DNA of 64,000 nucleotides from Sphingomonas sp. PAMC26645 (lineage in GTDB: Bacteria > Pseudomonadota > Alphaproteobacteria > Sphingomonadales > Sphingomonadaceae): NCBI RefSeq assembly GCF_004795835.1, contig NZ_CP039249.1, forward strand, positions 682,001 to 746,000. The letters run 5' to 3'. The notes below the pieces were generated by a model. It was not told the DNA's origin, made no database searches, and worked only from the letters and a program-made list of their open reading frames with translations. This document shows, piece by piece, positions 60,356 to 62,179 of the stretch (its first letter is position 1; each line of letters opens with the position of its first letter). The translations under genes and the position numbers were made by a program.

Positions 60356-60820
60356 ATGCGCTGCCCCTTCTGCGGACATGAAGATAGCCAGGTAAAGGAC
60401 AGCCGCCCCACCGAAGACGGGGCGGCGATCCGACGCCGGCGCCAGTGCGAAGGGTGCGCGGCGCGTTTCACGACGTTCGAACGGATCCAGCTGCGTGAGC
60501 TGTTCGTGTTGAAGAGCGAGGGCAGACGTGAGCCGTTCGATCGCGAGAAGCTACTCAGGTCGTTGTCGATCGCGACGCGGAAGCGGGCGATCGAGGCGGG
60601 GCGGATCGAGAAGCTGGTGAGTGGTATCCAGCGTCGGCTGGAAACATTGGGCGAGAACGACGTCACGTCGAAGCGGATCGGCGAGATGGTGATGGACGGG
60701 CTCAAGGAGCTCGATTCCGTGGCGTATATCCGGTTTGCTAGTGTGTACCGGGATTTCAGCGAGGCCAAGGACTTTGAGGCTTTTGCCGGGAGTGTGGAGG
60801 AGGTTGGGCGAGCGGAGTGA
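60356..60820 (+). CDS. nrdR: Transcriptional repressor NrdR
   Basis: A 154-residue zinc-ribbon/ATP-cone regulator that represses ribonucleotide reductase genes in response to nucleotides. The ribbon is [17 protein letters not shown]...[18 protein letters not shown], followed by the ATP cone ([29 protein letters not shown]). ATG 60356 follows directly after the stop of the small upstream gene. It belongs to the glyA-linked transcript, an arrangement common in Alphaproteobacteria. No NrdR box was spotted in the window. Confidence 0.96.
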
Positions 60821-60837
60821 CCTGCTCCCTTACCAGT

Positions 60838-60888
60838 CCTTCGATACGCGCTCTCGACTTCGCTCAATCGCTACTCGGGACGAACGGT
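60838..60888. repeat. Family E repeat, copy 1
   Basis: CCTTCGATACGCGCTCTCGA, then CTTCGCTCAATCG, then CTACTCGGGACGAACGG. It is the forward member of an inverted pair with copy 2; the outer parts TTCGATACGC and CGGGACGAACGG match the other copies while the middle differs. Confidence 0.85.
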
Positions 60889-60991
60889 TTGGGGGAGTGG
60901 ATTAGGGGCAGTGGATTGGAGTGGGGCCCCATCCTCATCGGCGCATTCGTGCCCTCACACCCCATGTAAAATAAGGCCCGCCACCCCCCAT

Positions 60992-61041
60992 TCCGTTCGT
61001 CCCGAGTAGACGTCGAGCTTGTCGAGACGGCGTATCGAGGG
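60992..61041. repeat. Family E repeat, copy 2 (inverted)
   Basis: CCGTTCGTCCCGAGTAGACG plus TCGAGCTTGTCGAGACGGCGTATCGAGGG, the reverse complement of the family E unit and nearly identical to copy 3 within the downstream gene. It ends 13 nt before the GIY-YIG start. Confidence 0.88.
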
Positions 61042-61054
61042 ATAAGCGCCACCT

Positions 61055-62179
61055 ATGACATTCTGGGCCTATGTGGTGCGCTGCGCCGACGACAGTTATT
61101 ATACCGGACATACCGACGATCTGGAGCGACGGGTCGGCCAGCATAATCTCGGCGAAATCCCGGGATACACGCAGACGCGACGCCCGGTGACGCTGATGTG
61201 GAGCCAGGAATTCCCCTCACGGCAGGAAGCGCTCGCAGCGCAGTTCCAGGTGAAGGATTGGTCGCGGAAGAAGAAGGAAGCGCTGTTCCGCGATGACTGG
61301 GCGGCAGTGTCGGCGGCGGCGCGGAAGCCTGAGCATTCCGAACCTATCCCTCGATACGAGGTCTCGACAAGCTCGACCTCTACTCGGGACGAACGGGATG
61401 GGGAGGGCGAGCAGGCTGGTATGGGCGAGGAAGCGACGGTCGGTGTCTCGACCCCACCCCCCGTCATAATCCTCGTCCGCCCCCAACTCGGCGAGAACAT
61501 CGGCAAGGCGGCGCGCGCCATGCTGAACTTCGGCCTCAACGAAATGCGGCTAGTCTCCCCCAGAGACGGCTGGCCCAACCCCTCCGCCGGCCCGGCCGCC
61601 AGCGGTGCCGACATCGTGCTGCAAAACGCGAAGGTCTACGACAGCGTCGCCGCAGCCACCGCCGATTGCGCGCAGGTGTTTGCGACGACGGTGCGGAAAC
61701 GTGGTGTGACCAAGCCTGTCGTGACCCCGGAGCAGGCGTCAACCGAGATCCACGCCGCCCCCGGTCGCTCCGCCATCCTGTTCGGGCCCGAGCGCTCCGG
61801 CCTCGAAACCGACGACGTCGCGGTCGCGCGGACGATCATCACGGTGCCGATCAACCCGGAATTCGGCTCACTCAACCTCGCCCAGGCGGTGATCCTGGTC
61901 GCATATGAATGGTCGAAGGGCTTAACCGCCGAGCGCGAGCTGTCGCAGCCGTCGATCAACCCGATCATGCCGCCCGCACCGCAGGAAGAGCTCGACGGGA
62001 TGATCGGGCAGCTCGACGCGATGCTGATGGGGGCGGGGTTCTTCCATCTGCCCGACAAGATGCAGTCGACGCGGCGGACTCTCCGCACGCTGTTGACGAA
62101 GCCGGGCTGGTCGAGCCAGGAGATCCGAACTCTCCGCGGCGTGCTGTCGTCGCTGGCGGGGAAGAGGCCGCGGGGCTAG
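61055..62179 (+). CDS. GIY-YIG nuclease domain fused in frame to TrmJ-type tRNA methyltransferase
   Basis: A 374-residue open frame. Residues 1-90 are a complete GIY-YIG domain (FWAYVVRCADDSYYTGHTDDLERRV, WSQEFPSRQEALAAQFQVKDWSRKKK). Residues 133-374 are a SpoU/TrmJ RNA 2'-O-methyltransferase (ILVRPQLGENIGKAARAMLNFGL, ILFGPERSGLETDD, PINPEFGSLNLAQAVILVAYEW). The linker, residues 99-115, is encoded by a family E repeat. ATG 61421 (MGEEATVGV) could start a separate TrmJ, so either a fusion or two overlapping products may exist. TrmJ methylates position 32 of tRNAs. Confidence 0.85.
   Translation: MTFWAYVVRCADDSYYTGHTDDLERRVGQHNLGEIPGYTQTRRPVTLMWSQEFPSRQEALAAQFQVKDWSRKKKEALFRDDWAAVSAAARKPEHSEPIPRYEVSTSSTSTRDERDGEGEQAGMGEEATVGVSTPPPVIILVRPQLGENIGKAARAMLNFGLNEMRLVSPRDGWPNPSAGPAASGADIVLQNAKVYDSVAAATADCAQVFATTVRKRGVTKPVVTPEQASTEIHAAPGRSAILFGPERSGLETDDVAVARTIITVPINPEFGSLNLAQAVILVAYEWSKGLTAERELSQPSINPIMPPAPQEELDGMIGQLDAMLMGAGFFHLPDKMQSTRRTLRTLLTKPGWSSQEIRTLRGVLSSLAGKRPRG
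61347..61396. repeat. Family E repeat, copy 3, inside a coding frame
   Basis: TCCCTCGATACGAGGTCTCG plus ACAAGCTCGACCTCTACTCGGGACGAACGG. It matches copy 2 except for a few bases, including paired changes that keep the inner stem GAGGTC/GACCTC. It is read in frame between two protein domains. Confidence 0.9.

Follow-up and report, generated by a model that had tools for sequence, protein, structure and literature searches.

A GIY-YIG Nuclease Gene Bracketed by Palindromic Repeats and Joined in Frame to trmJ in Sphingomonas

Organization of the nrdR-trmJ Locus

The junction between nrdR and the tRNA methyltransferase gene trmJ of Sphingomonas sp. PAMC26645 holds a GIY-YIG nuclease gene that shares a single reading frame with trmJ. 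The locus lies in a window of 64,000 nucleotides, which is the whole stretch of DNA analyzed (contig NZ_CP039249.1, positions 682,001 to 746,000; coordinates below are those of the window), from a genome assembled as one 4.28-Mb contig. The features of the locus are:

60356..60820, forward strand: nrdR, encoding the transcriptional repressor NrdR, left flank of the cassette (Pfam PF22811 and PF03477; 5' of trmJ in most fetched genus loci)
60837..60895, forward strand: R1, a third, partly matching repeat copy oriented as R3 (direct repeat D1, 60862-60894; inverted matches I2, 60862-60895, and I4, 60837-60858)
60986..61044, reverse strand: R2, upstream arm of the repeat pair, outside the reading frame, starting near CCGTTCG (inverted repeat I1, 59 nt, 93%)
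61055..62179, forward strand: fused GIY-YIG-TrmJ reading frame, 374 aa (translation, Pfam, database relatives, genus loci)
61055..61330, forward strand: GIY-YIG nuclease domain, UPF0213-like (PF01541; PDB 1zg2 and 1ywl; residue checks)
61345..61403, forward strand: R3, downstream arm of the repeat pair, translated in frame as the linker IPRYEVSTSSTSTRDERDG (repeat comparison; translation)
61404..61441, forward strand: remaining linker, holding a non-conserved in-frame ATG at 61421
61442..62176, forward strand: TrmJ-type tRNA 2'-O-methyltransferase part (PF00588; PDB 5gra)

Translation of 61055-62179 yields 374 residues uninterrupted by a stop. A Pfam search of this protein places the GIY-YIG domain PF01541 at residues 4-74 (5.6e-15; 55.8 bits against a Pfam cut-off of 22.6) and the SpoU methylase domain PF00588 at residues 137-284 (9.1e-22), so that the single open frame with a GIY-YIG and a TrmJ domain, first described in an earlier note made from the sequence, is real. 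For the nuclease half, the PDB matches are the UPF0213 structures 1zg2 and 1ywl; its domain is UPF0213/COG2827-like, but it is not a small standalone protein, 40 of 46 loci having it in a common frame with trmJ. The methyltransferase half aligns with the solved TrmJ 5gra (E 4.8e-105). Among NCBIfam models the best for the whole protein is TIGR00050, just below its cut-off (159 bits against 167.15), and the equivalog PRK15114 scores 108.7 bits against a cut-off of 280. The closest named proteins are from Sphingomonas, for example S. faeni with 97% identity.

The R2 and R3 arms are 59 nt long, 93% complementary and separated by 300 nt. R3 is in frame within the linker, at residues about 97-117, and with R2 upstream of the gene the two arms thus bracket the nuclease gene. 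The locus has an inverted-arm score of 49; the highest value among 732 control placements within the fetched loci is 15.5. The earlier note had read the linker as the in-frame translation of a repeat with a near-identical inverted partner about 300 bp upstream, and both parts of that reading are borne out by R3 (61345-61403) and by its 93% complementary partner at 60986-61044. R1, at about 60837-60895, is absent from that note.

The PAMC26645 repeat reads CCGTTCGTCCCGAG, beginning with CCGTTCG and lacking a CGTC tag at one end. Its core, CTACTCNGGACGAACGG, has 23 copies in the genome, and a pattern search allowing up to 3 mismatches finds 29 sites, 15 of them within open reading frames by a crude ORF calling whose figure is not used as evidence. 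As single-stranded DNA, R1, R2 and R3 fold no better than shuffled sequences (z = -0.44, -0.46, and +1.83). In a predicted RNA fold of 60821-61420 the R2 and R3 arms form 56 base pairs around the nuclease start codon; such a modeled stem could serve as an RNase III target or block the start.

Distribution of the Fusion

A total of 101 genus genomes were searched, and 99 of these were classed after omission of G019 (no match) and G006 (no trmJ in the stretch fetched). The two domains are fused in 40 genomes, GIY-YIG lies beside trmJ in a separate frame in 6, and trmJ is present with no GIY-YIG match within the fetched stretch in 53. Both Pfam domains are likewise found in 118 of the best 120 database relatives, which are 354-434 aa long. 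The expectation of the earlier note that the two proteins are normally separate in related genomes is contradicted by these counts, since among the genus loci with GIY-YIG at this position 40 of 46 are fused and 6 of 46 separate. A sequencing artefact or frameshift was rejected as the origin of the frame, which is common to 40 genus genomes with both domains present in 118 of the best 120 relatives.

Outside the genus, fused frames occur in an order-wide sample of 147 genomes at L243, L244, and L245, which belong to other genera but to the same family. Among the matches listed from the order's remaining families, alignments start at residue 109 or beyond and do not include the GIY-YIG part. 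A fusion of this kind was reportedly noted by Tkaczuk et al. in 2007. That paper mentions in passing a GIY-YIG domain fused to COG0565, the TrmJ family, in ELI_05635 of E. litoralis (PMC1829167). The fusion is therefore neither unique nor new, being common in the genus and once recorded in the part of the 2007 paper available (PMC1829167). In two loci, L071 (G025) and L066 (G068), an in-frame stop just 3' of the repeat parts the nuclease from TrmJ; the nuclease match of L071 is truncated. A TrmJ tree of 97 rows, built without G088 and G063 (truncated TrmJ matches, counted as lacking GIY-YIG), requires 14 changes of GIY-YIG presence, and because 40 of its 94 inner branches are open, no number of gains is claimed.

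Palindromic Repeats Accompany the Nuclease Gene

The presence of inverted arms flanking a gene was scored with an arm test, for which a pass is a score of at least 13.5, the 99th percentile of the 732 control placements. This test is passed by 71 of 83 GIY-YIG copies from the genus, with 12 failing; by class, the passes are 33/40 for fused copies, 4/6 for separate copies, 27/28 for paralogues, and 7/9 for distant GIY-YIG genes. It is also passed by 36/54 loci from a class and phylum sample (18 failures) and by 58/79 named loci (21 failures). L146, at a contig end, was dropped from the flank test, and from 445 loci 80 were kept for the named set, of which 79 were used, L263 being too short; L249, a 100% match to the L200 query, is likely to be that gene again. 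The genus and class/phylum sets together give 107/137 passes, or 106/135 distinct loci, two having been counted twice (L167 = L002, failing, and L173 = L135, passing). In comparison, only 3 of 285 ORFs pass, taken from 20 segments of 20 kb at arbitrarily picked positions in 17 genomes holding GIY-YIG loci, with a downstream window (40 nt before to 190 nt after the stop) that is not identical to that for GIY-YIG genes. This ORF control is the fairer one, because the control placements of the genus, class/phylum and named sets lie mostly inside genes. Judged by the flanking arms, a position between palindromic repeats is usual for genes of this GIY-YIG family, and the repeat is no chance insertion.

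Record titles of the named loci include groups of Pseudomonadota and of Patescibacteria, Nitrospira, Omnitrophota, Chloroflexota, and a Leptolyngbya metagenome-assembled genome (MAG). The GIY-YIG proteins L249-L328, one exact match aside, are 61-82% identical to one query, and their record titles name several distant phyla, a similarity that suggests horizontal transfer or MAG contamination. Many arms of these loci carry a common motif: GTCAT/ATGAC occurs in 46/54 strong arms of named loci, often in the CGTC-REP form CGTCATTCCCGCGAAGGCGGGAATCCAG, and the CGTC-REP tag is found in both flanks of 27/54 class/phylum loci. Among the fused loci of other genera L243 alone passes the arm test (34.0), L244 and L245 scoring 9.5 and 7.5.

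Where GIY-YIG is present, a palindromic repeat lies 3' of the nuclease domain in nearly every nrdR locus. The exact repeat core CGAACGG/CCGTTCG is absent from 46 of 47 nrdR-trmJ junctions lacking GIY-YIG, and in 40 of these 47 the nrdR stop and the first TrmJ residue of the alignment lie 0-20 nt apart (overlaps being entered as 0); the 47 are the measurable ones among 53 GIY-less loci, the other 6 having no nrdR in the stretch. Inspection by eye places further cassettes (L131, L132, L133, L134, and others) directly 5' of dnaG- or era-like genes, and in several of these the nuclease stop overlaps or adjoins the start of the next gene. Those genus paralogues that were listed before dnaG- or era-like genes mostly have, again by eye, an inverted repeat upstream and a matching repeat in the coding tail.

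PAMC26645 itself encodes two further GIY-YIG copies. One (L329, G000:C1:998338-998601) precedes a pheS-like gene and has a CGTC-type repeat dimer upstream, and the other (L167/L002, G000:C1:1361316-1361579) precedes a sucD-like gene and has a CGCGAAGGCGGG palindrome upstream, the neighboring genes being identified by eye. Both fail the arm test, L002 with 8.5 and L329 with 9.0. Such copies, several others of which fail as well, are in keeping with a reading in which repeats merely gather in spacers and are picked up by a small GIY-YIG gene whose nuclease has nothing to do with them; REPs are indeed known mainly between genes, according to the available part of PMC3733652. This passive reading is nonetheless distinctly unlikely, given arms at 107/137 GIY-YIG loci against 3/285 ORFs, the lack of a repeat core in 46/47 GIY-less nrdR-trmJ junctions, and a repeat type that follows the nuclease instead of the host gene, as described next.

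Co-variation of Repeat and Nuclease and Exchange of Cassettes

For the 37 nrdR loci with measurable arms, distances between upstream arms and distances between nucleases remain correlated when TrmJ distance is removed (partial r 0.61, 0/2000 permutations), and the value for repeat and TrmJ distances given the nuclease is -0.15. When 64 genus copies are taken together, the simple repeat-nuclease correlation is 0.45 (0/1000 permutations). By these distances, repeat type tracks the nuclease and not the host gene. The core CTACTCNGGACGAACGG, designated type A, is present in 30 of 101 genomes, 27 of which hold an nrdR-locus GIY-YIG gene; the other three have one or two copies. It is absent in 19 of the 46 genomes with GIY-YIG at the nrdR locus, and the linkers of these contain other repeat types.

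A cassette can differ sharply between flanks that hardly do. Between PAMC26645 and L024 (G092), dS is 0.40 for NrdR and 0.40 for TrmJ and 2.11 for GIY-YIG; identity drops where nrdR ends and is regained where trmJ starts, and the L024 repeat type differs from that of PAMC26645. In L027, L029, and L031 the nuclease groups with that of L024 and TrmJ falls in the PAMC26645 clade. Alignment of these sequences points to exchange or to separate insertion of the cassette and does not indicate the mode. Exchange at one locus could be ordinary homologous recombination. L007-L009 (G061, G034, and G018) appear chimeric by eye, with a PAMC26645-type nuclease body and the tail and repeat of another clade. 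A GIY-YIG tree, built from few columns and without the distant copies and L071, has only 3 changes between nrdR-locus and paralogue copies, so that jumping between these loci looks rare.

Mobilization by a RAYT transposase was rejected for PAMC26645, in whose genome no match to the Y1 transposase (RAYT) domain PF01797 was found; such matches occur in 11 of the 101 genus genomes, 10 of them over the cut-off. A second repeat, type B, is most abundant in G010 (86), G083 (59), and G062 (44). The GIY-YIG copies fetched from these three genomes are not flanked by type B, at least three further G010 copies being unfetched. G010 also has a Y1 transposase match.

Translation through the Repeat

Strong downstream arms are open in all three frames in 49/55 cases, as compared to 17/55 in the reverse orientation. 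With the 3' arm free of stops in the orientation of the gene, translation of a nuclease gene that ends in such an arm tends to continue through it. Across species the repeat is read in all three frames (e.g., L001, L008, and L025), with 20, 14, and 11 loci per frame, counts that are approximate because the wrong core was picked for a few (e.g., L007, L013, L061, L063, and L099); one lucky insertion is thus not the cause. Unfused GIY-YIG genes at the same spot (L066, L103, and L106), as well as the paralogues before dnaG- or era-like genes, also read through the 3' repeat and stop further on. What the fusion requires is an open frame between the repeat and trmJ.

These observations bear on the origin suggested in the earlier note, according to which a repeat landed between two separate genes and removed the stop, creating a new bifunctional enzyme. 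The position of the repeat, exactly in the linker and in frame, is what such an insertion would leave. Of the 46 loci with GIY-YIG at this position, however, 40 are fused, the repeat types differ among them and all three frames are used; the same repeat tail is present on unfused copies, and in the fused locus L124 no repeat core was detected. It is the GIY-YIG gene that the repeat accompanies, and the idea that the repeat made this fusion by removing a stop is not supported; the insertion account is very improbable, refuted as a unique event and surviving only as a possible early one.

The same note had raised an internal start at 61421 that would still give a separate TrmJ. An in-frame ATG is present there but is not conserved, 25 of 40 fused loci having no ATG in the linker. 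Nine of the 40 have neither ATG, GTG, nor TTG there; a separate TrmJ would in such loci need a start inside a domain or a non-standard codon, and in these nine TrmJ is most simply made as the fusion.

Selection and the Nuclease Active Site

Nine close pairs were compared, for which dN is at most 0.051 in GIY-YIG and at most 0.036 in TrmJ, with dS of 0.33-0.93, and in which the linker is relaxed. By these rates both domains are under purifying selection.

The residues Y6, Y16, R26, and E63 are taken to be the catalytic Tyr, Tyr, Arg, and Glu by the roles of their counterparts in UvrC and I-TevI. All four are kept in 43 of the 46 nrdR-locus copies (by ungapped position), and E is found at position 63 in all nine close relatives compared. 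The PAMC26645 copy retains Y6, Y16, and R26 and has Gln at position 63 in place of the usual Glu; with Q at a nearly invariant position, its nuclease may be inactive. In L124 (G087) the fused frame is open, the catalytic residues are lost (Y16F, R26A, and E63V), and no repeat core was detected. Given the residue losses of L124 and the E63Q of PAMC26645, TrmJ seems not to need the nuclease. Both cases fit a decay of the nuclease while the need of TrmJ for an upstream start keeps the frame open.

The conservation of both domains, the retention of four catalytic positions in 43/46 copies, and a frame held open through many linker lengths could also be expected of a domesticated bifunctional enzyme, in which GIY-YIG would serve TrmJ, for example in tRNA cleavage or quality control, and the repeats would be relics. 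Nuclease-SPOUT fusions were noted in 2007 with their function left open in the portion available (PMC1829167). Such domestication sits poorly with unfused, repeat-bearing paralogues at other genes, with a cassette that differs while TrmJ hardly does, and with the lost nuclease residues of L124, whose frame is kept, and the E63Q of PAMC26645; it is considered unlikely.

A Model for the Repeat-Nuclease Cassette

The account that is probably correct, given the sequence comparisons, is that a repeat-nuclease-repeat cassette entered the nrdR-trmJ junction and that its 3' repeat is read through into TrmJ. The cassette, consisting of inverted R2, the GIY-YIG gene and R3, would occupy the junction, and its nuclease would belong with the palindromes around it in the way that a RAYT transposase belongs with its REPs. 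The 3' repeat would act as the coding tail of the nuclease gene, and, being usually stop-free in three frames, would allow translation through it. Where no stop is left before trmJ, one polypeptide would result, comprising the nuclease, a repeat-encoded linker, and TrmJ.

Beyond the architecture of the locus, we infer steps of cutting, mobilization, fused expression and protection. The nuclease would cut a strand at its cognate repeat when this is single-stranded or extruded, and cutting would promote the copying and exchange of repeats and cassette by recombination. RAYT/REP pairs and the Ssn family serve as the pattern for this step, and on that pattern we propose that cutting at the repeat may drive both repeat copying and cassette exchange. 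Several observations speak against the proposal: R1, R2 and R3 fold no better than shuffled sequences, the two other GIY-YIG copies of PAMC26645 fail the arm test, its E63Q nuclease may be inactive, and type B repeats are most numerous in genomes whose fetched GIY-YIG copies lack type B flanks. Fusion would then tie TrmJ to the nuclease start codon and so protect the cassette from deletion.

A broader version is offered more tentatively, as possible but somewhat less than evenly balanced: GIY-YIG nucleases of this family may mobilize RAYT-less palindromic repeats (CGTC REPs and the Sphingomonas CCGTTCG relatives), and the cassettes may be autonomous mobile elements beside housekeeping genes, exchanged as units and becoming fixed when their 3' palindrome is translated as part of the host protein.

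Relationship to Known Systems

Nucleases of the Ssn type, reported in Nature Communications in 2025, are said to be site-specific single-strand GIY-YIG nucleases paired with an abundant genomic repeat. Their homologues are reportedly many, each with its own target sequence, and the work is said to deal with cutting and with natural transformation in Neisseria. A repeated cognate sequence in the genome, reportedly a mark of this type, is seen here in the core copies, the arms and the co-variation. The combination of GIY-YIG with a repeated genomic sequence would be common to both systems; the flanking-arm cassette and in-frame fusion may be peculiar to the present one. The Ssn family probably covers the nuclease-repeat pairing as such. 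The additions made here are the anatomy and breadth of the flanking cassette, the differing cassettes at nrdR-trmJ, and in-frame fusion via the nuclease's own repeat. A literature search, outside of which lay most subscription papers and preprints, found no paper linking GIY-YIG to repetitive extragenic palindromic repeats or to dRS3.

Palindromic elements of Rickettsia are also translated in frame inside proteins. They are scattered insertions in unrelated proteins, whereas the palindrome described here brackets the nuclease gene and forms its tail. They are mentioned in the available part of PMC3733652.

In RAYT/REPIN systems an enzyme gene is flanked by inverted short palindromes that are scattered in the genome (in part from the accessible text of PMC3733652). 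The likeness lies in an enzyme gene between inverted copies of a genome-scattered short palindrome; the difference is that GIY-YIG replaces the Y1/HUH domain, the PAMC26645 genome being without a PF01797 match and the locus without the Y1 HUH transposase of RAYT/REPIN systems. CGTC REPs are apparently without a dedicated transposase, as far as the available portion of the source goes (Di Nocera et al., 2013; PMC3733652). Beyond the genus, many GIY-YIG loci have arms resembling these repeats, CGTCATTCCCGCG..GCGGGAATCCAG, whereas the PAMC26645 repeat starts with CCGTTCG and not CGTC. ELI_05635 has, likewise, an N-terminal GIY-YIG followed by a TrmJ-family SPOUT domain, in the same order, and is reported as a domain fusion with no mention of repeats or a cassette in the part of the paper available (PMC1829167).

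Implications

A point for annotation is that many TrmJ entries from Sphingomonas are fusions whose linker is encoded by a repeat. The GIY-YIG nuclease is a candidate enzyme beside CGTC REPs, in organisms of several phyla, and with the nuclease next to such repeats the question of a CGTC REP transposase becomes directly testable with purified protein and its own repeat. The arrangement suggests a route by which a selfish unit may join a housekeeping protein, by way of a repeat in which stops are usually absent from all frames. If the more tentative, broader version is true, a tRNA methyltransferase would be tied to a selfish element.
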